Shown: positions 5,774 to 29,721 of the stretch, one piece after another
Numbering within the stretch: the first letter of the stretch is position 1
How the letters are laid out: each line of letters opens with the position of its first letter
Program-made: the position numbers and the translations under genes
IMG/VR virus record: IMGVR_UViG_3300037189_014483
Span: 1-33,020 of that record
Strand: one strand, 5' to 3'
Source: a virus
Length of the DNA stretch: 33,020 nt
Notes under the pieces: generated by a model
Database searches by the model: none
What the model saw: only the letters and a program-made list of their open reading frames with translations
What the model was told of the DNA's origin: nothing

Positions 5774-7533
5774 TAGGCGCACTCCCTTTCCATGCTGTTA
5801 AGATCGTTTGCGTCGTGCTCATCGTCACCGCACAGAGCCTCGCCAACAATCATAACGCCTGAGCAGGTAACAAGCGCGTAGACCTCGCGAGCCTCAGGTT
5901 GCGCAACAAGCACGCCTGCATCAGCAAACGACTCCCACTGATAACCAGTCCACACCGCATGGCTGCCCGTCGCGACGGTTCCAGAGTACGTGTAGAGCGC
6001 CTCTTCGGATGTGTACTTGCGAACCTCGAGAACCTCCGTGGAGAACAGCGCGTCTCCAACCTTGACGTCTTCGATGTTCTTGTAGGTTGTGTCTTCCATG
6101 AGCACGCGTTCGCCGGGTGGAAAGCACATAGCAACAATGCTTCCGACCGAGGAAATGACGTTGCCGAGCATGCCCTTTTTGTTCTCTTGCTCTCCAGTGA
6201 GGCGTGCCTGCTCTGCGGTGAACTTGTTTGTTTCCGACTGGAGCACAGACTGCAGAGACTGTTGTTCGATCCCGAGAAGCTTTGCCGTCTGAGCCTGATC
6301 CATTCCAGTTGCCTGGAGCTTTGCGGCCTGGTTTGCAATCGACGCACGCAAGCCTGCATCCGTTTTGAATCGGTTCATCTCATCTTGGGCCTTGGCGTTG
6401 AACTGCTGTGCGCCTTGGTTGGCCGTAACGTTGAATTGACCAGCCTGCAAAGCGTTTGCCGCGTTTGAAGTGCTCGCCTTTAGCGCCTGTTCAACGTTGA
6501 AACGACTCGTCTGCCCGAACTCGCCTTGATTGGCCAAGGCAACCTGCTGTGCAAGCTGTGCCTGCGTTGTGGCCTGTTGGTTAGCCTGAGCTGCGTTCTG
6601 CAGAACCGCCTGCTGGTCAAGCTGTGCCTGCTGAGCCGCCAGGTTCACGTCCATCGTGCGCGTCTGTCCGAGCACGTCAGCAAGCTGTGAGCGTGCCGCC
6701 TGCTGTTCCTGGATACGAAGCTCTGCAGCGCGTGCGCCCTGCTCAGAGGAGAGGTTGGCTACGTTGATTGCCGCCTGCCTCTGCGCCATAGCTGGCGTCA
6801 TGCCTCGCTGAGAGCCCGCAAGCGCAAGTTGCTGCCTGATAGCTTGCTCATTTTGGCGCTGCAGCTGCATCTCGGCAATCGAAGGTCCTGCGCCGCTTGC
6901 CTGCGCCTGTAGGGCCTCTGCCAGCTGCATTTGCGAGGCTCTCACGCCTTGCTCATCACCACGCTCAATCGCTGCAGCCTGTGCGCGCTCCAGTTCGGCA
7001 ATACGCGCGGCTTCGGCCTGCTGCATCTGCGCCTGTGCGACGGCAATCCTCTCTGCTTCCACCTCTTCGGGCAGAGAAACGCGAGAAGCATCAGCAATCC
7101 TACCGGTGCTCACAATATCTGCCTTGGTGCCGTTCTTCTGCAGGGCATCAGCAAGCGCTCTGCTGTTTGCACCTGCGCCCTGCATGCCTGCCTGAGCAGC
7201 GTCTACGCCTGCAGTGGATGCTGCTTTGATCCCTGTGTTTGTTGGGTCAAATCCTGATAGGAACTTTCGAAAACCACTGTCTACCTGCTTTGCAACGTTG
7301 CCGACCTTTGCGCCGACGCCTTGCGCCTGGCCTAGAGTCAGCACGTTAAAGGCGGCTTCTGTGATTTTGCCGGACTTCTCAGGAGAGCCGGTCAGAAGCT
7401 CCTTTGCGTCACCGTCAAAGAGAGACTCGCCTACCTTTAAGACCTGATTTGTGGCCTGCATAGGCCCGGCTCTTCTGTCTTTCGGAAGATTCTTTTCGTT
7501 GTACTTATCTACCGCTTTTCCCAGCGAGCCCAT
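5773..7533 (-). CDS. Ala/Gln-rich ejection-type virion protein with C-terminal Hint domain
   Basis: A 586-residue protein. ATG overlaps the nozzle gene stop (TAATG) behind GAGGG. Residues ~150-460 are an Ala/Gln-rich helical region typical of phage ejection proteins, ending in a hydrophobic stretch (GMLGNVISSVGSIVAM). From Cys470 the character changes to a compact ~117-residue domain that I read as Hint (hedgehog/intein). It begins CFPPGERVLMED (block A nucleophile Cys with the usual G..V), continues YKNIEDVKVGDAL (the IEDIKVGD-like strand), and has T522-G-S-H525 (block B TxxH) before an aromatic W-x-x-x-x-W stretch. A block F-like VYALVTCSG follows. The terminal Asn/His-Asn needed for splicing is absent and no C-extein follows, so self-cleavage before Cys470 is more likely than splicing. 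Autoprocessing is inferred. Confidence 0.75.
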   Translation of the reverse strand: MGSLGKAVDKYNEKNLPKDRRAGPMQATNQVLKVGESLFDGDAKELLTGSPEKSGKITEAAFNVLTLGQAQGVGAKVGNVAKQVDSGFRKFLSGFDPTNTGIKAASTAGVDAAQAGMQGAGANSRALADALQKNGTKADIVSTGRIADASRVSLPEEVEAERIAVAQAQMQQAEAARIAELERAQAAAIERGDEQGVRASQMQLAEALQAQASGAGPSIAEMQLQRQNEQAIRQQLALAGSQRGMTPAMAQRQAAINVANLSSEQGARAAELRIQEQQAARSQLADVLGQTRTMDVNLAAQQAQLDQQAVLQNAAQANQQATTQAQLAQQVALANQGEFGQTSRFNVEQALKASTSNAANALQAGQFNVTANQGAQQFNAKAQDEMNRFKTDAGLRASIANQAAKLQATGMDQAQTAKLLGIEQQSLQSVLQSETNKFTAEQARLTGEQENKKGMLGNVISSVGSIVAMCFPPGERVLMEDTTYKNIEDVKVGDALFSTEVLEVRKYTSEEALYTYSGTVATGSHAVWTGYQWESFADAGVLVAQPEAREVYALVTCSGVMIVGEALCGDDEHDANDLNSMERECA

Positions 7534-10500
7534 TATGTAGCCCTCATTGTTTGAGTGTCTGGAAGCCTGTTTGTGCCACCCTTGACGCCGATGCCCAAAG
7601 TCAGGCCTGTGATGTTAAACGCGCCCGTGCCTTGATTGTCGGGGAATGCGTCCTCAATGAGAAGGCGCATACTCTGGCATTTCTGACGGGCTGGTTTGAA
7701 CTCAAACTGATAAACACCCGTACCACCGCCGAACGACCCTGAGCCATAGATGCCAGTGCCGAATACGTCTCCATTTACGACAGGAGCCGGGTTCATAATA
7801 AACTCCTCCCGATAGAACGGCTCAAAGTCATAGGCCACGCGTACACGCAGCCTGTGGTCACCGATGTACTCGCCCAAGATAATGCCGTTATAGCAACGCT
7901 GAAAACCTTGCAGTCCGCCTGTCTGGAACCACTGCGTGCTGATGCGTGTGCGGATAACAGAGCCATTGTCTGCGTAGGATGCGGATTCCTGCCAAGCTTC
8001 TCCGTTGGTCTTGAGGAAAACAAAGTTGTTCTGCCAACCAACGGCAGAAACGGATTCCTGATTGGTAAACGTAGTCCACACCTGGAAGAAATAGTCATAA
8101 ACCAGCGTGCGTCCCTGTGTGGTCGTGAATCGAACCTGGTTTTGGTCAGGCACAACCACCGCTCCAGAGACGTTGAGAGCGTTGAACTCTTCAACCTTGG
8201 CGCCAACGTATTCGACTTGCAAAGAGCGAGACAGGATGTAGATGCCCTTGGCGCTCTTGAACATGACGCCTTGCGGAGTCTCAACGATGCTTTCAGGCTC
8301 TGTGCAACCAACGTCGGATGCTACCTGCTGAGGAACAAGGAAGTCATTCTGAGCGCCCGTGTCGGTCGGTCCTTCTCCAGTGAGGATGTAGATGCTTGTC
8401 TGCTTAAACAGCACAAGCTTTTCATCAAGAACGGCGAGCGCAGTAACGGAACCGCCCTGGTTTCCTACCTGGAGATTGAACAGATCAGAGAACGCAACGC
8501 CTTCGTCGTTTACATGCGCCTTAGAGAACAGAACGTCAGACTGTCGCTCAAGCCCAGCAACGAATAGTCTGTTCTTAAACACGCGAACAACATCGCATGA
8601 AGGCACTGTGTAGTTATCTAGAGTGCCGCCTGTCGTGTACAGAAGCGGCTTTGTTGCCAAAACATTGTCGTCCATGGTGTCGACGAAATCGACCGTGTCA
8701 ACCGTTGGATCGTTGTACAGAGGCGATGTGTCAGACGATGCTTTGTAAAACAGCGTTCCCGAAGCCGCAGTGCGATAGACACTCACGATGACTTCCGAGC
8801 GCACAGGAGCCTTCTTTGACGTGTATCTAAGAGTTGGGATCGTAAGCGTCACGTTACGATGACTTCCGGTGACGGTGAACGACTGAGGGATGCTTGTTAC
8901 GCTACGGTGAACCTGGCCACGGCCGTCAATCCATTCATACACAACGATGTATTGATGCGTTCCAGGATGAACCCCACTAGACCCACTCTGGGCGATGCTT
9001 GATGCATCCGGATAGAGGTGGAATCCGTGTTCCACAACAGACACGCCGTCGTAAATCTTGAGATATCCGCCGGGGATGTGCAGGTTCCCTGCTAGCTGTG
9101 CAGGTGTGCCGATGCGTGGCGCAGAGTGGTCAATTCGAACCGAGTTGACTCCTAGGAGCGTGAACGTGTCAACGTTGTCTGCAACAATGCGCGTCTTTCG
9201 GAGGGTGGAGATGAGCCAATTTGTCCCTTCAAGGAGCCATGCGCCCGGAAGTTGCGAGACTTTGTTTGTGTGCCCTCCTCCAACAGTGGGAAGCACCTTT
9301 GCCTGGATAATCGACTCGACAGTGGAGCCTCCCCAGTCTGTGCCCCAGTTGTAGCCCCAGCCGGTAGCAAACGCTCCAAGGTTGTCAGAGATGCTAAAAT
9401 ACGTGTCCTGCAACTCCGCAGCTGATTCGTACGCCACAAGCATGCGCGAAGAGTTTAGGGAGCGGTACGCCTTTGAGGCAAGGCCCGCTGCCCGCTGGAA
9501 CACCACGGCGCTTGAGACTGCATTGTCAGAGACGCTTAAGAGCGCACGGGCCACGTATCGGTTGATAACGGCAGCCGCGTTGCGTTCGTAGAAGATCTCC
9601 ACCTGATTAAGGGAAGAGAATGGGTCAAGGTACGCAAGAGCAGTCACGTTGCGCACAGTGGTTGCGACGTCAGAGTCTACGACGACAGAAGCCTTGTAAG
9701 TCGTAAAGTCTCGGTAGAACCCCATGGTCTTAAGGCCGTCTGTCGTATTGAACCAGACCACATGGAACGTGTCTGTGGTGCCGTCTGGAACTCCAGTAAC
9801 AACGGTGATGCACGTAGTCGGGTTCTCTGCGGTGATTGCCGTTGGGCCAGGAACACCGTCTGCTGTGGTTCCCACCGTGTTTGTCTGCAGAAGGTAGGCA
9901 ATCTTGAGCTGGGCCGTGGCGCTTCGGTAAGCAATGACCATGCGAGACGTGCCAAGCTGACAGATATCGTAAATGGGATTGGCAGTGTCGATATCGTTTG
10001 CGGCATCGTTCTCTAAGGAAAACTCAAATGGGTTTGAGGTATCGATGCGCCTTGAGATGAGCGTGTTTGAAGTCGAGTCGAAGTACAGCACAAAGAGGTA
10101 CGTCCCGAGTGCAAAGCACCGAGGACGCGAGCCGGTAGCCGAAAGCTCTGTGTCTGCGATGAGTGATGCGCCAGAGTCCTGGTCAACAACCGTGGCACGC
10201 ACGCCGCCGCGCGAGTCTTCCCACGCATACACGGTCGTTCCGCGCACATAGGCAGCGTCTACGTTTGTCTGCTGGTATGAGTTGGTGACGATGTTCCGAG
10301 TCTGAACGCTTGAGGTTGCGACACCGCCTTTGGCAGCCCACGATTGCGCAGTCGTTGCGTACGAGTACAAAGACCGCGAGTTGAGCATAACAAGCTCATC
10401 GTCGAACGTCGCAAGGCGAATGCCCTCGTCTAAGTCATCGCCTCCTAGTACATCGATACCGAGACTGTCGTAGCCCTTGCGTTTGCGCAGTTCGCCCGTC

Positions 10501-18210: not shown

Positions 18211-19590
18211 CTAGCTTTGGTCCCACCATTCCTTGGTTTCCTTTTCTGCGAGGCGTTGTGCTTGCGAATCCCAGAACGTTTCGACCTGCTCTTCCGAGGT
18301 GGAGGCTCTGCGCGGGATTGGGTTTGTGTACCTGTCGATAGAACGAAATCCGTACGTGGCCGCCGCAATCGCATCCATGTGGCCAAGCGTTGCAGTGCGG
18401 TTGAAGTCCGTGCGCGTTTTGTTGAACGTTGCAGCCTTCAGAGTAGCAATGAGGAACTTGCAGCGTGGGTGAACGAACACCATGCGTTGGTTGAAACCGT
18501 TGCGAAGCATGTTGACCTGAGCGAGCCAGTCATCCTTTGGAGTCTGGCGGCACAGGTAACCATGGGCTTGGTTTAAGTCTATGAGCAGCTGGCCCGGCGC
18601 ATCCACGATACGGTCCACTGGGTACGGCTCAAGTCCCATGAGACCCGAGATGATATCCTTGGTGCCTGTGTTTGCGTCAGCCACGAACTCGCCAAGGAAG
18701 TGCGTGGTAGCGCGTTCGAAGTCATAGGCGACAAGGAGGCCCACAGTCTTATCGCGCACGCCTCCGAAGTCCGTGGCAACGAGGTAGTTCGCATGCCGTG
18801 GCTCATGCTCTATGACGTGCACCTCTGAGTTGAACTCAGGGACGACAACAAACTCCTTATCGATCTCACGGATGCACATGAACTCGCGACGCCATGCGAC
18901 AGACGCCTCGCCTCCGCAGTCTTTTTTGAACTGCTCAATGGTTCGCGCATCGATAAGCGGGTTGTCGTAGACCGTGCGGACAAAGTGAGCGCCGTTTTGC
19001 TGACACTCAGGGACAACGTCATCGTGCAGAGGATGCACAGGATATGGACTCGGTGTCGTGAGGTGCGTCATCGGCCCGCGCGAGTGCATGAGCGTAGGTA
19101 ACAGCACGCTTCGCACCGTGTAGAGGAACTCATCAGGGTCGGTGATGCCCGACTCATCGCAGTAGATGGAGGACGCCCGCAGCCCACGGAAGGACTCCGA
19201 AGCGCTATCGAAGCCGCCAAGGATGATCGAGGAACCGTTGGCACAGTTCCACCGGTACTCGGACTTGGTGCGCGTCACGAGGCCAGGAGGCGCGTGCATG
19301 AGCACATCACGGATGAGCGGCACGATTATGCTTGAGGCCTGCTTCAGGGAAGGCGCGCAGTAAAGCACCTGCGCATTGGGCTGCGCGAGTGCGTCTTCAA
19401 GAGCCATCACAACGCCAAGCACGCTCTTGCCCCAGCGGCGGGAGATCTCCACTACGCGTTGGCGGGCTTCCGAAGGAAGGGCGCGGAGGCGGCGGTACAC
19501 ATCCTTCTGTGACTCATGCAGATACCAATGCAGGCAGCCCTGAGCGAACAGAGCTTGTTTGGCTATGGCAGGATCAATCCTCGCTACCAT
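18211..19590 (-). CDS. terL: Terminase large subunit
   Basis: A 459-residue packaging ATPase/nuclease. I chose ATG 19590, with GAGGGG upstream, over the in-frame codon at 19602. ATPase domain: Walker A-like SRRWGKS (50-56), Walker B IYCDES (142-147, with D145 and E146) and a TTP coupling motif near 178-180. Nuclease domain (RNase H-like): Asp274 in ATDFGG, Asp330 in RIVDAPG, Asp406 in GHMDA. It is at the short end of the TerL range but has all catalytic motifs. It overlaps TerS by 17 bases. Confidence 0.93.
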   Translation of the reverse strand: MVARIDPAIAKQALFAQGCLHWYLHESQKDVYRRLRALPSEARQRVVEISRRWGKSVLGVVMALEDALAQPNAQVLYCAPSLKQASSIIVPLIRDVLMHAPPGLVTRTKSEYRWNCANGSSIILGGFDSASESFRGLRASSIYCDESGITDPDEFLYTVRSVLLPTLMHSRGPMTHLTTPSPYPVHPLHDDVVPECQQNGAHFVRTVYDNPLIDARTIEQFKKDCGGEASVAWRREFMCIREIDKEFVVVPEFNSEVHVIEHEPRHANYLVATDFGGVRDKTVGLLVAYDFERATTHFLGEFVADANTGTKDIISGLMGLEPYPVDRIVDAPGQLLIDLNQAHGYLCRQTPKDDWLAQVNMLRNGFNQRMVFVHPRCKFLIATLKAATFNKTRTDFNRTATLGHMDAIAAATYGFRSIDRYTNPIPRRASTSEEQVETFWDSQAQRLAEKETKEWWDQS

Positions 19591-19951
19591 CTTGCCCCTC
19601 AAACAGTGTGGGCTGCTGCGGCATGTTCACCGCCTGAAGTAACGCAGCTCTGTCAACATTAGCGAACACCTGGAACGCTGGTTGCTGCGGTGTCTCAGGT
19701 GCTTTAAGTGGAGCGGCGATGTAGGGCATGACGGCAACGATGGTCTTTGCGCGCAAGTCTGGAGCGAGCTGAGGCATGAGCCTCACCAGTTCCTCAATCG
19801 GATTAAAGCCAAGGCGGTCGAAGGTTTCAGCGACCGTTTCCCTGATCGCTTTATCCACACCCCTTGCGGTAGGAGCGATATTGATTGAGCCCGCCTTTCG
19901 GCCTGAGCCTTGAGGTTTTGGACTTCCTTTTGGACGTCCTTTACCGGCCAT
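19574..19951 (-). CDS. terS: Probable terminase small subunit
   Basis: A 125-residue protein just before TerL, overlapping it by 17 bases. The N-terminal ~30 residues are basic and Gly/Pro rich (GRPKGSPKPQGSGRKAGS), a DNA-binding tail common in phage small terminases; residues ~35-85 are helical (oligomerisation core); the C-terminus is Gln/Pro rich and acidic. No canonical helix-turn-helix is obvious. Only a weak purine stretch (GAAAG) precedes the ATG. The upstream leader contains a repeated ATCTAT motif (19953-19997). The call rests on synteny plus the basic tail. Confidence 0.75.
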   Translation of the reverse strand: MAGKGRPKGSPKPQGSGRKAGSINIAPTARGVDKAIRETVAETFDRLGFNPIEELVRLMPQLAPDLRAKTIVAVMPYIAAPLKAPETPQQPAFQVFANVDRAALLQAVNMPQQPTLFEGQDGSED

Positions 19952-21618: not shown

Positions 21619-21955
21619 TTAGGTACACCTCAAGATGCTTTTTAACGTCTTCAAGGTCGCGCACCACAAACGCTAAACCGCCGTGAGCATTCACGCTAGC
21701 CAGGAAGGCGTCCTGATCTTTGGATGTTTTACCTTTGCTCGATTTCACCTCGATCGCAAGGAACCGACCGTCAGGAAGAACGCCAAGGATATCCGAGACG
21801 CCTTTGAGGCCGTTTGCGTTGCGATACGCCTCCCTAGACGCATCCCACACGCCTCCGTTGTTCTGGCGCCAAACGAAAAATCCCTTGGTCTTAAGCCAGC
21901 CAAGGGTGAGTGCCTGTATTTGGGATTCGGTTAGGCGAGGATGTGGACCTTCCAA
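21596..21955 (-). CDS. VRR-NUC domain nuclease
   Basis: A 119-residue single-domain protein of the PD-(D/E)XK superfamily, VRR-NUC type. Motifs: SQIQALTLGWLKTKG (helix with conserved Q and the 'E.Q.q..i..wl...g' pattern), GVSDILGVL with Asp55, FLAIEVK with Glu69 and Lys71, and KTSKDQDAFL with Gln81. Start codon is TTG at 21955: AAGGTG lies about six bases upstream and there is no suitable ATG. It overlaps the helicase end by 25 bases. Such nucleases often act on branched DNA in phage recombination or Holliday junction processing; the pairing with helicase, recombinase and SSB supports that. Confidence 0.85.
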   Translation of the reverse strand: MEGPHPRLTESQIQALTLGWLKTKGFFVWRQNNGGVWDASREAYRNANGLKGVSDILGVLPDGRFLAIEVKSSKGKTSKDQDAFLASVNAHGGLAFVVRDLEDVKKHLEVYLNGHGRSS

Positions 21956-23475
21956 AAGTCACCTTCTTTTGAAGCGAGGATTTTACTGACGTCGTACTGA
22001 AGACGTTTGCGCTTTTGGTCTATTTTCTGTTGAACAAAATCATTGTCTACCTTGTGAGTCACGTATTCCGTTATCGGCGAATCGAATCCGACTACGCGAT
22101 AGTAAACAACGGTCATCTGCTTACCAGCCCTTGAGAACCTCTCTTCAAAGTCGACTCGCATAACGGAATGAACTCCGCTTTTAGGCTCTGTCATAGACTC
22201 GGACGTTGTGACCACGTCTGAGTGGGAGATGATTACATCCCCGCATATGTGGCAAGAGCGAGCGGCAGACGCGAGGACGGCCCTACACTTCTCGCACTCT
22301 TTGGTACCTCCCTCCCCCTTCATAAGCGCGGGGTCGATACCCATCTTGATAAGTTCTTCATCGGTGAACTTCTTTTTGCTCTTGCGCTCTTTTGGCTCAT
22401 TTGGCTCCTCTGGAAGACCAAGGCGCTCAAAGTTCCCTGCGCAGTCAATCATCAGAGAGTTGGCCTTGCCTGGATAAAGGCGCAACGCACGTCCGCACAT
22501 CTGGATAAACAGGCTGATGCTTTGAGTTGCTCTTAAGAAGAGCAAGCAATCCACGCGCGGGATATCAACTCCCGTCGTGAGCACGGCGACGTTTGCAATG
22601 TATTGGTGTTTGCCTTCCTTGGCTTCAGAGATGATACGCGCGCGCTCTATGGCTCCAGTCTTCTCCGTGAGCACAGCGCCTCTGTACCCGCGCACTTTCA
22701 TGAGTTCATGAACCATCTTGGCGTGCTCAATTGAGCAACAAAAGATGAGCGTAAGAAGCCTATCGGCTGCCAACCTCTCCCATTGATCAAGGCATGAACG
22801 GACGATCTCGCCAGAAGTCGAAACGCGCTCAAGCTCTGCCTGGTTGAAATCTCCTGCAACGGTCTTGATGCCGTCTGTCTTGATGACCTGTTCTACGGTT
22901 GGAAGCAGATACGGCGTCAGCATGCCGATGGAAAACAGCATGGCCATATCGACCTGAGCAGCGCAGGTCTCCCAGTACTTGCCGGGACCGTAGATGCGCC
23001 CGTTACCGAGACGATACGGCGTTCCAGTCAAGCCAACCACATAGCGAGGCGCGATAGCGTCTAGCATAGTCCTGTATCGAGTCTTCGGGTTTTCAGAAAC
23101 GAGATGGCATTCGTCGATTATAACGATGGAAAATGGACCGCACGCCATGGGGTCACGACCGAGGGAGTCTCTAGAGGCGTGAACCACTGAGAGTCGGGAG
23201 TCGGCTTTCTTTCCAAGCCCTGCGCAAAACACGCCAGATGACTTTACGCCGTTCTGCAAGCAGCGCTCATGGTTCTGCATGAGGATATCGGAGGTGTGGC
23301 ACAACACGAGAATGCGAGAGTCTGGGTTTTTTTCCAGCATTCTCCGCGCTATCTCAGCAATGATTACAGACTTTCCTGAAGAGGTCGGAAGCCATCCGAC
23401 AACACGGGAATGCTTTGAAAGAGAGCGAGCGATATCGCTAACCGCGTCAGCCTGGTACGGACGCAGCGTAATCAT
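21931..23475 (-). CDS. SF2 DEAD/DEAH-type helicase with zinc motif
   Basis: A 514-residue helicase. Domain 1: Q-like RPYQADAV near residue 5, Walker A PTSSGKS (30-36), DECH box (121-124), LTGTP motif III (149-153). Domain 2: VLTTGVDIP motif V (298-306) and QMCGRALR motif VI (325-332). A C4 zinc ribbon follows: CEKC (394-397) and CHIC (408-411). The C-terminal ~100 residues are an extra domain. The start ATG overlaps the preceding small gene stop (ATGA). It is of the UvsW/RecG-like or ERCC3-type SF2 class that unwinds branched or replication-fork DNA. It probably works with the neighbouring Sak4, SSB-like and VRR-NUC proteins. Confidence 0.9.
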   Translation of the reverse strand: MITLRPYQADAVSDIARSLSKHSRVVGWLPTSSGKSVIIAEIARRMLEKNPDSRILVLCHTSDILMQNHERCLQNGVKSSGVFCAGLGKKADSRLSVVHASRDSLGRDPMACGPFSIVIIDECHLVSENPKTRYRTMLDAIAPRYVVGLTGTPYRLGNGRIYGPGKYWETCAAQVDMAMLFSIGMLTPYLLPTVEQVIKTDGIKTVAGDFNQAELERVSTSGEIVRSCLDQWERLAADRLLTLIFCCSIEHAKMVHELMKVRGYRGAVLTEKTGAIERARIISEAKEGKHQYIANVAVLTTGVDIPRVDCLLFLRATQSISLFIQMCGRALRLYPGKANSLMIDCAGNFERLGLPEEPNEPKERKSKKKFTDEELIKMGIDPALMKGEGGTKECEKCRAVLASAARSCHICGDVIISHSDVVTTSESMTEPKSGVHSVMRVDFEERFSRAGKQMTVVYYRVVGFDSPITEYVTHKVDNDFVQQKIDQKRKRLQYDVSKILASKEGDFWKVHILA

Positions 23476-23878: not shown

Positions 23879-24356
23879 TCTCTATCCCGCCCCATTCATA
23901 CATCTTGATCGATTGCTTTGGCCCGCGATGAACTCCCTTAGGAGTAAAGAACATGGCCACATCGTTCTTATCTTCACCGGTGTCCGTTCGTTTTGTAACC
24001 GTTACGTTTGCAATGATTTCGGACCCTGACAAATCCTCAGCAACTTCGCTTGCAGAGTTGTACATCTTGCCGCTTTTTCCGGTTGCAAACAGAAGGTCGG
24101 AAAGCTTCCTTCTGCCAAGCATAACGGCCATTTCACTTGGGTTTGACCATGTGAAGTAAAGGAACACCTTGCGGCCGTTGTATCGGTTGCCAGCTTGAGG
24201 GGAGTGCTCAACAATCTGGAGAACAACCTGAATGCCAACAGAATCAATGTTCTTCATGTGTTGTTTGGCTTCGGAGACAAAGCAGCGGTACGCACCCTTA
24301 GGGATTATATTGCCGCCCGTACTGGCTTCTTCTGCGTCAGGATTCCATGGCTGCAT
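23787..24356 (-). CDS. DUF669/SSB-like single-stranded DNA-binding protein
   Basis: A 189-residue protein with an OB-like beta core (residues ~20-150; for example GAYRCFVSEAK, YNGRKVFLYFTW and a GSEIIANVTV strand) and a disordered Pro/Gly/Ala linker ending in the acidic tip DEDVPF (184-189). That tip is the signature of SSB proteins that dock partner repair enzymes. The overall look fits phage DUF669 proteins, often encoded next to Sak4-like recombinases. It overlaps the recombinase end by 20 bases. It would coat single-stranded DNA and present partners through its tip. Confidence 0.75.
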   Translation of the reverse strand: MQPWNPDAEEASTGGNIIPKGAYRCFVSEAKQHMKNIDSVGIQVVLQIVEHSPQAGNRYNGRKVFLYFTWSNPSEMAVMLGRRKLSDLLFATGKSGKMYNSASEVAEDLSGSEIIANVTVTKRTDTGEDKNDVAMFFTPKGVHRGPKQSIKMYEWGGIENGTEKPARPGKPATGAAAYTPAAADEDVPF

Positions 24357-25065
24357 TATGATTCATTCCTTTCCAAAAGTTCTCATCAGGATTTTCAACA
24401 CACATATCGAGCCCGAACCGATTTCCCGCTAGAAATCCCGCCCTTTCTTGGCAATAGATTTCCCTATCTCCAGACGATAGGCCAACGCTTTTCTTTCCGT
24501 TTTCGCCCTTTTTTACGCGCGTTTTCCAGCGGTAATAGAGCACAGCATCCGTAGCACTAACGATAGAGCTAGAGGCGTTCTTGGTGACGTCTAGCTCGAT
24601 TCGATCGTACGAGTCAACCATCGGATCGTTGGTTGGCTTGATGCGCTGGTGTCCGATGAGAAGAACGTTTTTACCGCCATTCCTCATGCTTTCGCACACG
24701 CCAATAAAGTGCTGCCAAAGGCCCGTGAGTGCGCCGTATCCCTTGCCGTAACCAGGGGATTCAAGCGTCTGCCAATTGTTCTCTTTAAGGAGGTGCGCTG
24801 TAAAGATGCGCTCGATTGCCGTCACTGAGTCGATGACGCACGTCTTAAAATCGGGAGACTTATAGATCTCGCGAAGGCCATGCGTAAGCTTTTCGTAGGT
24901 GTCGATCACGCCGTCTACACGGGCAACGTCAAACCCAGATGAACCCTGTTCAACATCTAGGAACACGGGCTCAGGGGCGAGTGCGGCTAGGTGGGTCTTG
25001 CCTATCTTTGGCACTCCATAGAGAAGCACAAAGAACGGGCGAGAAATCTTTCCCTTTGAAATCAT
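24337..25065 (-). CDS. Sak4-like RecA-fold single-strand annealing / recombinase ATPase
   Basis: A 242-residue ATPase of the AAA_24/Sak4 type. Walker A GVPKIGKT (17-24) and Walker B FKTCVIDS (73-80) are in the RecA-fold order, followed by NGGKNVLLIGHQRIKP and DVTKNASSSIVSATDAVLYY, typical of phage Sak4 proteins. It is the first gene after the control region and is followed by the SSB-like, helicase and VRR-NUC genes; Sak4 recombinases are known to depend on SSB partners. A TTTAAT -10 element lies about 20 bases upstream. Confidence 0.85.
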   Translation of the reverse strand: MISKGKISRPFFVLLYGVPKIGKTHLAALAPEPVFLDVEQGSSGFDVARVDGVIDTYEKLTHGLREIYKSPDFKTCVIDSVTAIERIFTAHLLKENNWQTLESPGYGKGYGALTGLWQHFIGVCESMRNGGKNVLLIGHQRIKPTNDPMVDSYDRIELDVTKNASSSIVSATDAVLYYRWKTRVKKGENGKKSVGLSSGDREIYCQERAGFLAGNRFGLDMCVENPDENFWKGMNHNAAMES

Positions 25066-25265: not shown

Positions 25266-26546
25266 ATGAGAATAGAAGAAATAGCCTCCAAGTCAAGCGG
25301 TTTAATAAAATCGCTCTATGAACAGGCATTGTCTGTAAATCTCCCATACCCAGAATTCGCGCTCGCCACCGCCCTACACACGGTGTCTGGCATCTCTGCG
25401 CGAGCGTTCAAGTGGCCTACCTCAACGGCCCCCACTTTCTATAGCTTCATCGTAGGCGAGCCTGGAGCGGGCAAAAACGGCTATCTCAAGATGCTTGAGT
25501 CCTACCTGTGCGCAGTGGGGGAGAAGTACACCATAGGACGCCTGGTCTCCCGTACCGGGACCGTGGCGGAACTCTCCCGCTGGCCATGCCGAACGCTCAT
25601 AGAGGACGAGATTGGCAACTCATGGCTTGAGACCTACGCACCCAAGGCATCAGAGGCTCGCAGGGAGATCCAGGATCTTCTGCTGACCCTGCACGGGGAG
25701 AATAAGAGTCTGGCGGGCACGGCAAACAAAAAGGTCGAAGACCAGGTTAAGCGGGTCTTCTGGCCTCGCCTGTCTGTCTTTGGGGCCACGACACGGACCG
25801 CCATGCACGATCTCACACAGACAAAGCCCTTCGAGCGAAGTGGGATGATCTCACGTTTGCTCGTCTGGGAGACGGAAAAGACCGTACTGCCAAAGGGACC
25901 TCCTACGGGGTGGGAACTGGATCCGGCAATCCTCGATGGCCTGCGGCGCATTGCAAGGCACGGCGTGGTTGGCCTGAACGTAGACGAGGGCGAGGAAGCC
26001 ATGAAGCCGGAGGCAACCACCTCGGTGCGTCTCTCAGGGGCTGCGGACGCCTCCCTTCTTACGTGGCTGAGGGCATCCTCCGAGAAGAGGGAAGCTCTGT
26101 GCGCTGAGGAGTCCGAGGCGTTTGGACAGGTCTATTCCCGCGCCACAGACAATGCCTACCGGTTTGCCTATGCCCACTGCGCCGGGAGGGAGTCCCTGGA
26201 GGTCTCAGAGCAGGACGCAGCTTTTGGGGTGGCCCTGGCTAGCCTGCACTTGTCCCGGACGCTTGAGAGGATGGGAAGGCAATCTGAGGAGCAGAGGCTA
26301 ATGGATATGCTCTTGGATTGGCTCCAGGGAACAGGTTCGGTCAGCGTCCGTATGGTTGCCCGCACTGGCCCAAATCAGATTAGACGACTGGCAAGCCATG
26401 GGATCCGGGGCATGCTTAATGAGCTTGTAGCGTCTGGCTATGTTAAGTGCTTGAAAGATGAGCACAGCGAAACGTTCTCAGCAACCGGCGGGAGGTTGGC
26501 GTCGCTGTCGGCCGCGACACTTGCCAAAAAGAAAAAACATATATAG
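25266..26546 (+). CDS. P-loop replication-type ATPase (DUF3987-like)
   Basis: A 426-residue protein. ATG 25266 has AAGGA close upstream; the GTG at 25221 lies in a hairpin and was rejected. The Walker A loop GEPGAGKN (64-71) has Asn where Ser/Thr is normal; Walker B is LIEDE (111-115). Conserved-type helices (residues ~10-45) and a segment SVFGATTR (around 175-185), where the motif-III-like sensor is expected, match phage DUF3987-like proteins associated with replication. The C-terminal half appears to include a winged-helix-like part and a basic KKKK tail. It lies immediately upstream of the iteron cluster, so it is the best candidate for the initiator or helicase-type replication protein. 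Confidence 0.7.
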   Translation: MRIEEIASKSSGLIKSLYEQALSVNLPYPEFALATALHTVSGISARAFKWPTSTAPTFYSFIVGEPGAGKNGYLKMLESYLCAVGEKYTIGRLVSRTGTVAELSRWPCRTLIEDEIGNSWLETYAPKASEARREIQDLLLTLHGENKSLAGTANKKVEDQVKRVFWPRLSVFGATTRTAMHDLTQTKPFERSGMISRLLVWETEKTVLPKGPPTGWELDPAILDGLRRIARHGVVGLNVDEGEEAMKPEATTSVRLSGAADASLLTWLRASSEKREALCAEESEAFGQVYSRATDNAYRFAYAHCAGRESLEVSEQDAAFGVALASLHLSRTLERMGRQSEEQRLMDMLLDWLQGTGSVSVRMVARTGPNQIRRLASHGIRGMLNELVASGYVKCLKDEHSETFSATGGRLASLSAATLAKKKKHI

Positions 26547-26686
26547 ATTAAGGATGTTAACGGATTTTGTGTCGCAACTGACCCCCCAAAGTTGCGACAA
26601 GTTGCGACAGAGTTGCGACAAGCAAGATCCCGAGACTAAAGACATAAACAGCCAGTGTCGCAATGTCGCAGGCTGTCTAGAGACCT

Positions 26687-26738
26687 AGGGCGCCTGTATG
26701 TATCTTTAGATACGGGATAGGCCCTCATTTTTATTTTA
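26687..26738 (+). terminator. Hairpin terminator after the P-loop gene, inside the iteron region
   Basis: An imperfect long hairpin on the plus strand: AGGGC (26687-26691) pairs with GCCCT (26721-26725) and an inner GTATCT/AGATAC stem closes on a two-base loop. CATTTTTATTTTA follows. It would end the transcript of the P-loop protein within the iteron cluster, keeping the origin free of readthrough. Confidence 0.6.
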
Positions 26739-26870
26739 CAGAGTAAAAAACCAAACTCAGAGAAGCCAGAGAAGAAAACTCTATATTTAACCTGCGACAC
26801 TGCGACAAGTTCTCACTTGTTATTGATATATAAAGATTATTGGTGTCGCAAACGTGTCGCAATTTGTCGC

Positions 26871-26882
26871 GGCCAGCTGGCC
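26871..26882. repeat. Perfect 12-bp palindrome GGCCAGCTGGCC
   Basis: A perfect palindrome with a PvuII-type centre, abutting the last degenerate iteron at 26865 and followed by AATATTTG. Could be a dimer binding site beside the iteron array. Confidence 0.6.
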
Positions 26883-26987
26883 AATATTTGTTTAACTAAT
26901 TGATACAAATGAATTATTCTGTCGCAAGTGGGTAACAGTTGACTAGCGATGTTTATGGTGCCATTCCGTCAGCCGGACGGAGGACGT

Positions 26988-27254
26988 ATGGATGCTAGTT
27001 TAAGAGGCAGAATCGTTTTGTGGCTCGCCGCATTCAACGCTGGCTATCACCACCACAGGTCAGGGGCTCAGCGGGAGATGCTGACCAAGATCTCTCAGCG
27101 AAGGCTTGAAGATGAACTTGATCTCATGCTCAGCGAGGGCCTTGTAGACGTCAGGGAGCGAGACGGACGCATCGTAGCCACCGACAAGCTCAAGGCATCG
27201 GATCTGTGGCCACGATTGACTAAGGCGCCTGAATGGGACAAGACGTCCGTCTAG
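26988..27254 (+). CDS. Putative small winged-helix-like protein
   Basis: An 88-residue protein. ATG 26988 follows GGAGG; the earlier ATG at 26949 has no site. It is helical with a stretch RRLEDELDLMLSEGLVDVRE and then RDGRIVATDKLK, resembling the recognition helix and wing of a winged helix-turn-helix, but short. It opens the second part of the rightward operon just beyond the iterons, and an iteron (26920) overlaps its possible promoter. Could regulate that promoter. Function unproven. Confidence 0.5.
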   Translation: MDASLRGRIVLWLAAFNAGYHHHRSGAQREMLTKISQRRLEDELDLMLSEGLVDVRERDGRIVATDKLKASDLWPRLTKAPEWDKTSV

Positions 27255-27267
27255 CGAAGGAGATAGT

Positions 27268-27519
27268 ATGTTTTTATGGGTGTACGCAGGCGTTCCCAAG
27301 GATAACAAGTTCGTTCCGTCATCGAAGATGTGCATCAAGTACGAAGACGTCCTCTATGCGGAATCCATCAAGGGAGACCCTCCCGGGGTTCTCTGGATCG
27401 CCCTTCGCACGGGCGGAGTTCATTGCGTGCGCACTACGCAACGCGATTTCCTTGAACACCTCAAGAGCGGCTCCCCTCTCCTCTTGGCTCCCACCGACCA
27501 ACCGGAGGTCAAGGAATGA
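27268..27519 (+). CDS. Small beta-rich protein, weak LytTR-like resemblance
   Basis: An 83-residue protein behind a strong GAAGGAG. It contains IKYEDVLYAESIKGDPPGVL, ALRTGGVHCVRT and RDFLEHLKS, a pattern reminiscent of LytTR-type DNA-binding domains ('...I.yIes..y...t..g....r.tl..l..L') but shorter. It overlaps the next gene (ATGA), so the two are coupled. May be a DNA-binding regulator; low certainty. Confidence 0.5.
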   Translation: MFLWVYAGVPKDNKFVPSSKMCIKYEDVLYAESIKGDPPGVLWIALRTGGVHCVRTTQRDFLEHLKSGSPLLLAPTDQPEVKE

Positions 27520-27746
27520 AAGCGGAAAAAGGGCTCTATTACACGGTGACAGAGGCGGCCCGCGTACTGGGCGTGAACGTAAGCCGCATCCGCCAACTCA
27601 TTTATGCCAAGAGGATCCTTGGGACAAAGAAGGCTGGGAACATCTGGCTAATCAAGGCCCCTATCCGAATCGAGCGGGCGGAAAAGTGGGGCGGATGCTC
27701 AACGATTCCTTCTAAAGCTTACGTGCGCAACAGGAATGCCTCCTGA
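27516..27746 (+). CDS. Excisionase/MerR-like helix-turn-helix protein
   Basis: A 76-residue DNA-binding protein. The segment YTVTEAARVLGVNVSRIRQL (about residues 9-28) then IYAKRILGTKKAGNIWLI is a typical HTH_17/excisionase-type winged helix ('ytv.EaA..LGvs...v..li....l...k.G..w.I'). The start overlaps the previous stop and GGAGG lies upstream. It could be a small repressor, an excisionase-like factor, or a plasmid-type copy control protein near the iterons. No integrase was seen, so excision proper is unlikely. Confidence 0.75.
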   Translation: MKAEKGLYYTVTEAARVLGVNVSRIRQLIYAKRILGTKKAGNIWLIKAPIRIERAEKWGGCSTIPSKAYVRNRNAS

Positions 27747-28545: not shown

Positions 28546-29721
28546 ATGCCTTGGTATTTATTGACTAAGAAATCCTTGCTGAAGATGGACGGAAGCAAAG
28601 CAATTGAGCGCATCCGCACGTGGCCTTCAAAAACCGCAATCAATACTCTCTATCTCGCGCCTGACGATATGATCGTTGACCTTGAGCGCGAAGAGCCTGA
28701 GTTCGCAAGCGCAGAGCCTGCTCCTGAGCCCGCGCCCGTCAAACCACCCGGCACCTCTGCTCCAAAGCCTCCGGTGAAGTGGCGCAAGTCGCCGAACTTC
28801 TCTGCGCGCGGCTCTGCGATTGACCGCGTGATCCTGCACTACACCACCGGTGGCACTGCCGAGGGCGCTCTGTCCTGGTTTGAGAAGCCCGAATCTCAGG
28901 TGTCAGCGCACTACGTGATCGATAAGGACGGCACCATTTACCAGTGCGTGTCCGACGATCGCAAGGCGTGGCACGCCTACGGCGAGAACGATGACTCCAT
29001 CGGCATTGAGCACGTCGCGCGCAAGGGTGAGCGGCTCACGCCTGAGCAGGCAAAGGCTTCGGCTGCGCTCATCGCGTACCTCAAAGCGCAGTACAAGCTC
29101 ATCAACGCAGACGTGACCGCGCACAGGTTTACGAACTCTAACAAGGGCCGCACGGATTGCCCCGGAGATCTGTGGAAGACAGAGTCGGAGTTGCATGCGT
29201 GGCTCGAAGCGATGGTGCCAGACGGCTTTTCGGCAGAGCCTATGCCTGCTCCAAAGGAACCCGAGAACGTGGCGACGCTTACCACCAACAAGGCTTGGCA
29301 CCCTGGCACATGGGGCGGCCTGTATATTTTGGTGCTTACGATCGGAAGCGAAGTTTTCTACGTCGCCTCCGGCGCTCGCGGAGCACAGAACTTCCGCCGT
29401 CCTACAGACCCCCGCAGCGTGCCCGGGAACCTCGAGCCGATTCCGCAGGGGCGTTACCGCATTGGACCGATCGAATTCGCAGGCGGGAAGGATAACTATG
29501 AGGGCTCATTTGGCGCTGGGCTTGGTCCTGTGTGGGTGGGTCTTGATGCTGATTTCAGTGATGATCGGGGTAGTTTCGGGATCCACGGAGATGGTAACAT
29601 TGGTTCGGCGCCTGGATCTGCTGGCTGTGTCGTGCTTCGCGATATCACTGACCTTAAGCGTTTCGTGGCGGCGCTGAGGAAGCACGACCCGAAGGTGCTC
29701 CATGTCGACTGGGCCCTCTGA
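28546..29721 (+). CDS. Endolysin: N-acetylmuramoyl-L-alanine amidase fused to a YkuD-like domain
   Basis: A 391-residue protein behind AGGGGAAG. Residues ~55-80 are a Pro/Ala linker after a short N-terminal domain. Residues ~88-215 are an Amidase_2 zinc amidase: H98 in LHYTTGG, AHYVIDKDGTIYQCV, SIGIEHV, then H193 and C205 in AHRF...TDCPGD as the remaining zinc ligands. Residues ~245-391 are a second domain ending in FGIHGDGN...GSAGCVVL: H347, S358 and C361 fit the HG...SxGC active site of YkuD / DUF2778 L,D-transpeptidase-fold enzymes. No signal peptide, so it needs a holin. Part of the C-terminal domain is also read in another frame (29498-29677). Confidence 0.85.
   Translation: MPWYLLTKKSLLKMDGSKAIERIRTWPSKTAINTLYLAPDDMIVDLEREEPEFASAEPAPEPAPVKPPGTSAPKPPVKWRKSPNFSARGSAIDRVILHYTTGGTAEGALSWFEKPESQVSAHYVIDKDGTIYQCVSDDRKAWHAYGENDDSIGIEHVARKGERLTPEQAKASAALIAYLKAQYKLINADVTAHRFTNSNKGRTDCPGDLWKTESELHAWLEAMVPDGFSAEPMPAPKEPENVATLTTNKAWHPGTWGGLYILVLTIGSEVFYVASGARGAQNFRRPTDPRSVPGNLEPIPQGRYRIGPIEFAGGKDNYEGSFGAGLGPVWVGLDADFSDDRGSFGIHGDGNIGSAPGSAGCVVLRDITDLKRFVAALRKHDPKVLHVDWAL
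29498..29677 (+). CDS. Overprinted two-helix holin-like protein inside the endolysin gene
   Basis: In the +1 frame relative to the endolysin there is an ATG at 29498 with AAGGA six bases upstream, giving 59 residues. Two hydrophobic helices (residues ~4-26: LALGLVLCGWVLMLISVMIG; ~40-56: LDLLAVSCFAISLTLSVSW) are joined by a short loop with charged residues (TEMVTLVRR), and the end is basic (WRR). This is the plan of a class II holin. In the overlapped region the endolysin uses more T-ending codons (GGT 5 of 12 Gly against 2 of 24 before; GAT 6 of 7 Asp against 6 of 16), which creates the T in the second position needed for hydrophobic residues in the second frame. Confidence 0.6.
   Translation: MRAHLALGLVLCGWVLMLISVMIGVVSGSTEMVTLVRRLDLLAVSCFAISLTLSVSWRR

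Follow-up and report, generated by a model that had tools for sequence, protein, structure and literature searches.

An array of twelve short repeated sites, lying directly downstream of a gene for a DUF3987 (YfjI-family) AAA+ ATPase, is interpreted here as a replication origin (with a probability of roughly 0.8), the upstream protein acting both to initiate replication and as the replicative helicase, with a C-terminal winged helix that reads the repeats (iterons) and, probably, with two hexamers opposed to each other on the DNA. The array belongs to the virus record IMGVR_UViG_3300037189_014483, whose 33,020 bases were analysed as a whole and are called the window below. We conclude that it is most likely an origin of the self-loading-helicase kind represented by SaPI Rep and Cch, and that the helicase comes from a family for which no earlier link to iterons was found.

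The gap between the two genes (positions 26547-26948) was searched for repeat words. It holds eight exact copies of TGTCGCAA, three of TGTCGCAG and one of TGTCGCGG, i.e. 12 sites in 358 bp. All of them lie in the stretch that runs from the ATPase stop codon (26546) to the next gene start (26949 or 26985), the first site starting 23 bp past that codon. The word TGTCGCA occurs 13 times in the window, with 11 copies in the array and the other two at 10317 and 18895. Word density was compared with first-order Markov resamplings of the window in which dinucleotide frequencies were kept (n = 300), and these never gave more than 3 copies per 360 bp, whereas the array has 11. The cluster of about 12 sites in both orientations reported in the earlier note was thus confirmed, and the scan for similar motif density elsewhere, which that note had suggested, returned nothing comparable in the 33-kb record (two further copies in the other 32.6 kb).

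The sites are laid out as a mirror image, a feature absent from the earlier note. After an outer copy of TGTCGCAA that lies outside the dyad (26570..26577, +), the left half-array consists of three TGTCGCAA sites on the minus strand (26592..26599, 26602..26609 and 26613..26620) and an inner pair on the plus strand, TGTCGCAA at 26656..26663 and TGTCGCAG at 26664..26671. The right half-array begins with an inner pair of TGTCGCAG on the minus strand (26792..26799 and 26800..26807), followed on the plus strand by TGTCGCAA at 26844..26851 and 26855..26862 and by the degenerate TGTCGCGG at 26865..26872, at the mirrored spacing; a second outer TGTCGCAA (26920..26927, +) again lies outside the dyad. 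The order of sites is therefore + − − − + + to the left and − − + + + + to the right of the centre, with start-to-start spacings of 22, 10, 11, 43, 8, 128, 8, 44, 11, 10 and 55 bp. The two half-arrays, of 5 sites each, mirror one another about position ~26732 within about one base, so that 10 of the 12 sites are paired, a result reached in 0 of 3000 arrangements in each of two randomised sets. When the degenerate site was left out, 8 of 11 sites were paired, which was matched in 16 of 2000 spacing shuffles.

Between the half-arrays lies a core (26691..26791) with a stretch of 60-70% AT and a weak hairpin, GTATCTTTAGATAC (z −1.6), which is a candidate unwinding element. AT-rich DNA had previously been described as following the array; its presence near the array holds, and its position has to be corrected, as it is found mainly between the half-arrays (about 26700-26790) and also at 26808-26840 and 26881-26920. 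Two other earlier suggestions fared less well: a sigma-70 scan found no promoter overlapping the site at 26920, and cumulative GC skew had no clear turn and gave no support to an origin here. Symmetry of the same type was observed in the array of locus L344 (10/10, exact) and in a Psychrobacter plasmid array (8/9). Dyad symmetry as a universal rule was rejected, with p < 0.05 in only 6 of 42 arrays; others among the 42 have two oppositely oriented clusters and no exact mirroring.

The adjacent gene (25266..26546, + strand) encodes a protein of 426 aa, the proposed initiator helicase, which was characterised with Pfam and PHROG. It scores 41.2 bits against PF13148 (cut-off 27), which places it in DUF3987, and it matches phrog_3022 (DNA primase) at 7.8e-20; at E ≤ 0.001 no Pfam family other than DUF3987 was detected, neither DUF927 nor D5/Primase_Cterm being found. 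This PHROG match is the sole "primase" label in the window, as the Pfam scan recognised no primase domain among the window proteins scanned, so that primers may be supplied by the host or by a gene that escaped recognition. The Walker A P-loop, GEPGAGKN (25455..25478, +), was located in the sequence and lines up with the P-loop of L371, a relative with a DUF3987 protein. A tblastn search with the protein returned only four weak phage relatives, and profile searches gave no convincing sequence relatives in the PDB.

An AlphaFold2 model predicts a winged helix at the C-terminus (residues 341-406; 26286..26483, +), which is the proposed iteron reader. This region has pLDDT values mostly of 82-95 (75-90 at its edges) and a helix-helix-helix-strand-strand topology, and has many matches to winged-helix domains of the PDB (Z 9-10.9); such matches are common and would indicate a fold, not a DNA target. 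The motif GPNQIR, identified from alignments, precedes its last helix (26367..26384, +; ADRKLR in L247, the nearest relative). The same model is poor in the ATPase core (pLDDT below 50), which counts against the reading proposed here; the best MCM match of this model was 3f8t (Z 9.0 over 204 residues, in a model with core pLDDT below 50), and searching structures with only the window model returned no hit at E ≤ 0.001. The relative L371, modelled with 38 sequences, reached a pLDDT of 88.9, and its best matches among solved structures were MCM helicases (Z 17.7, 275 residues, 3.9 Å, 12% identity), several MCM5 chains aligning with it on into the winged-helix end. Since the window ATPase is only 19% identical to L371, we infer its MCM-like fold through this relative.

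For comparison across the family, 98 DUF3987 loci were picked by protein and not by word, from viral contigs and from 398 genomes, sampled from one bacterial phylum and searched for the family, which 52 of them carry; the query proteins of the viral scan came from array-bearing loci, and some of the 98 loci are closely related. The family-wide protein alignment was too diverse for searching the collection, and subgroups were used instead. A 7-mer counted as clustered if it reached P < 1e-6 within the 900 bp surrounding the gene end, and the upstream 900 bp served for comparison. Clustered 7-mers were found downstream at 50 of the 98 loci and upstream at 5. The word TGTCGCA itself occurs 145 times downstream and 9 times upstream, against 9 and 6 for the reversed control word. 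In viral contigs the reversed word mostly hits coding-like repeats in multiples of three, so that hit counts are no clean control; in their place, the upstream regions of the loci picked without the motif, and the reversed word counted at these loci, served as controls.

Words at other DUF3987 loci include AATCGCAA, TATCGCAG, TTTAGCAG, TGTAGCAA and TCTAGCAA, as well as TGTTGCCC, TGTTGCAC, TGCCGCCA, CTGCGCCA and more, and most of them align on a core NNNNGC[A/C]. Arrays behind a DUF3987 gene are also present on circular plasmids of Legionella oakridgensis, Pseudomonas putida, Psychrobacter and Streptomyces; that of L. oakridgensis has six TGTCGCA, three on the minus followed by three on the plus strand, within 90 bp of the gene end. 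Both Psychrobacter plasmids also carry repM, and there DUF3987 need not be the initiator. Two further facts weigh against the ATPase as origin reader: about half of the 98 loci have no significant downstream array, and yfjI of E. coli K-12, which has a GPxxxR-type tail, is followed by none. The array region of one locus (L381) holds 11 copies of CGGTAGC and 6 of TGTCGCA, two iteron words that may mark a replicon in transition from one specificity to another or one with two origins. The DUF3987 proteins of L469, L467, L474, L403 and L354 end in tandem peptides (CANCANCAN, KVPKVPKVP, ATVATV, ASVASVAS), which look like arrays running back into coding sequence.

The nearest relative, L247, has a DUF3987 protein 68% identical to that of the window (67% by tblastn), and its gene is also followed by an array, so that the presence of the array in a close relative, which the earlier note had proposed to examine, was verified, with the word shifted from TGTCGCAA in the window to TGTCGCCA in L247. 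Ten of the 12 window sites align with sites of L247, with their position kept; at these ten, the window has GTCGCA throughout and L247 has GTCGCC in nine and GTCTCC in one. Identity between the two proteins is 0.74 in the helicase body, 0.44 in the winged helix and 0.11 in the motif before the last helix (GPNQIRRLA in the window vs ADRKLRHAG in L247). A word switch accompanied by a diverged winged helix would look like a change of reader specificity. The L247 array itself has a mirror score of only 4/10 and contains, at 7441-7479 of that locus, an AT-rich hairpin with 18-bp arms (z −6.9) in mid-array followed by a T-rich run, which may represent a terminator or else a cruciform in the middle of the origin.

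Covariation was examined on 39 non-redundant loci with a partial Mantel test, iterons being aligned on the core. Iteron similarity followed the winged helix when the body was controlled for (r = 0.288, p = 0.0005) and did not follow the body when the winged helix was controlled for (r = −0.11, p = 0.93). When the core was not forced and coreless loci were kept, the corresponding values were r = 0.11 (p = 0.035) for the winged helix given the body and r = 0.139 (p = 0.036) for the body given the winged helix. Since this unconstrained covariation is weak, a family-wide code linking winged helix and word is put forward as probable only, and the pair formed by the window and L247 is the firmer evidence. 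The earlier suggestion that the adjacent ATPase reads the origin is thus supported by comparative evidence, namely downstream arrays across the family, concerted change in L247 and a confidently predicted winged-helix tail.

TGTCGCA arrays were also found next to proteins of other families (Prim-Pol/AAA_25, Toprim/AAA_25 and BT4734-N/DUF5906), which counts against the ATPase as origin reader. These arrays were fetched by the word, so that a common word may have been used by chance, and a winged-helix profile run on the tails of these helicases gave no detection. Dense examples lie beside a Prim-Pol/AAA_25 helicase (L014:4708-7255), beside a Toprim/AAA_25 helicase with a C-terminal HTH (L097:3959-6000) and beside a BT4734-N/DUF5906 helicase (L093:5347-8163). 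At L066, L028, L049, L102, L114, L117 and L123 the array sits between a PD-(D/E)XK exonuclease gene and a gene of ~102 aa by the terminase small subunit; in the L066 group, no helicase was recognised in the three neighbouring proteins scanned.

Several other interpretations of the array were considered. It may be an origin read by another protein, with the ATPase recruited later, the candidates being a small protein of 101 aa (26949..27254, +), winged-helix-like by eye, which directly follows the array and has the same place in L247, and the product of gene 27516-27746, in which Pfam finds HTH_17. This is improbable, as the arrays trail DUF3987 genes family-wide while the profile of the small protein hits no other searched locus, and as the core-aligned words track the winged helix of the ATPase. 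The 101-aa protein, conserved only in L247, was rejected as a general reader, since the profile search found it in the window and L247 alone. A cluster of operators for a transcriptional repressor or activator of divergent or downstream genes would agree with sites that precede a gene start, the one at 26920 being close to it. A consensus (sigma-70) scan, however, detected no promoter within the array, many unrelated elements with differing downstream genes have arrays 3' of their ATPase gene, and a mirror layout spanning 280 bp around a core would be unusual in operators, which together make this reading quite improbable.

Multi-copy short sites are also typical of partition (centromere) and packaging (pac/cos) sites, and one group of TGTCGCA arrays (L066 and relatives) is located near a terminase small-subunit gene. 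Nevertheless, no ParA/ParB family match was obtained among the proteins scanned around the array, the large terminase gene of the window (18211-19602) is 7 kb off, and the family-wide partner of the arrays is the ATPase; a partition or packaging site is accordingly considered very unlikely. Finally, a DNA-binding protein encoded by the host could read TGTCGCAA, which would explain why unrelated phage helicases have the identical word in common: it lies beside DUF3987, AAA_25 and DUF5906 proteins, and the elements concerned differ widely in GC content. That sample is biased, since it was fetched by the word itself, and DUF3987 elements carry many different words around one core. In the closest relatives, moreover, all sites switch together as the helicase tail diverges, as expected for a reader encoded by the element, and a host reader can hardly be credited.

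An origin read by the DUF3987 protein can be compared with several known systems. In SaPI Rep, the C-terminal domain recognises iterons that lie immediately 3' of the rep gene and to which the protein is thought to bind as two hexamers, and the Cch protein of SCCmec is an MCM-like helicase (PMC7581432, PMC5862659). The window shares with SaPI Rep (SaPIbov1, DUF927), Cch and Cch2 an initiator helicase with a C-terminal DNA-binding domain (both predicted for the window) and iterons directly downstream; it differs from SaPI Rep in having a DUF3987 protein without DUF927, the 8-bp word TGTCGCAA, a near-perfect mirror layout and a tailed phage as carrier. By analogy, it would resemble a SaPI-type origin in its working, yet stands outside the SaPI Rep families, which have DUF927 or D5/Primase_Cterm. 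DUF3987 has been described as a predicted helicase family of mobile elements, standing in for RepA, MCM or DnaB next to primases, and origin recognition has been proposed as the role of C-terminal winged helices (PMC5862659). The yfjI gene of E. coli CP4-57 and the primase of the Vibrio PICMI satellite belong to the same Pfam family as the window ATPase, and the copy number of PICMI falls when its primase gene is deleted (PMC10803314). In the open-access literature, nothing was found that links DUF3987 or YfjI to iterons or places an origin for the family.

MCM proteins of archaea and eukaryotes are the closest solved folds of the DUF3987 AAA+ core (L371 model) and likewise have a C-terminal winged helix, at a sequence identity of only 10-14%. 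MCM is loaded as head-to-head double hexamers, and by other proteins; no specific origin word is known to be read by its winged helix. The alpha protein of phage/satellite P4 has unrelated helicase and primase domains and a different repeat sequence. In that system one protein with primase/helicase activity binds short origin repeats and unwinds the DNA, and ORF904 of the Sulfolobus plasmid pRN1 is a helicase with a C-terminal winged helix whose origin lies just 3' of its gene (PMC4234260). Unlike the window, the pRN1 origin is a 100-nt stem-loop and has no iterons; a stable stem-loop of ~100 nt was not found in the window, where the hairpin is weak (z −1.6), in contrast to the strong hairpin of L247 (z −6.9). 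The window also departs from the classical Rep_3 iteron origin (tandem direct repeats of 17-22 bp in one orientation), its sites being of 8 bp and in both orientations. Iteron words co-vary with the initiator that reads them in begomovirus Rep, a rolling-circle protein unrelated to the DUF3987 protein.

From the observed sites, their mirror layout, the adjacency of arrays to DUF3987 gene ends, the predicted winged helix and the concerted change of word, we infer binding, hexamer loading and assembly, melting, origin activity and bidirectionality as follows. The 8-bp sites would be read by the C-terminal winged helix of the DUF3987 protein, whose AAA+ domain, with a presumed MCM-like fold, would assemble at the array. 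Each half-array (− − − + + and − − + + +) would seed one ring, so that two opposed hexamers would probably flank the core; melting would take place in the AT-rich DNA between the half-arrays, and forks would leave the array in both directions. The large genes of the window diverge from about 25.1 kb, pointing leftward on one side of it and rightward on the other, so that most transcription would run with the forks leaving the array.

Other genes near the array include, on the opposite strand, a Sak4-like single-strand annealing ATPase (AAA_24; 24337-25065, −) and a ResIII/DEAD-type helicase (21931-23475, −), both next to the proposed origin. A protein family of ~560 aa occurring near the arrays of L050, L058, L083 and L121 has a member in the window, which is probably this ResIII/DEAD-type helicase. 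Further downstream, an Amidase_2 endolysin (28546-29721, +) shows weak similarity to Tlde1 at its C-terminus, with a score under the Pfam cut-off.

A broader proposal, to which we give even odds, is that DUF3987 constitutes a large unrecognised class of MCM-like self-loading initiators of phages and plasmids, the specificity of their winged helices obeying a readable code of 7-9-bp words on NNNNGC[A/C], mirror arrays placing opposed hexamers directly through their sequence and one polypeptide doing the jobs that ORC, Cdc6 and MCM have in cells. If these readings are right, a function and an origin would be assigned to a protein family still labelled as a domain of unknown function, and many natural protein-word pairs would be available for the study of DNA reading by winged helices and of specificity switching between replicons. 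The family would also offer a simple one-protein system for studying the placement of paired MCM-like rings at origins, and in many uncultured phages and cryptic plasmids sequence alone would be enough to locate the origin.
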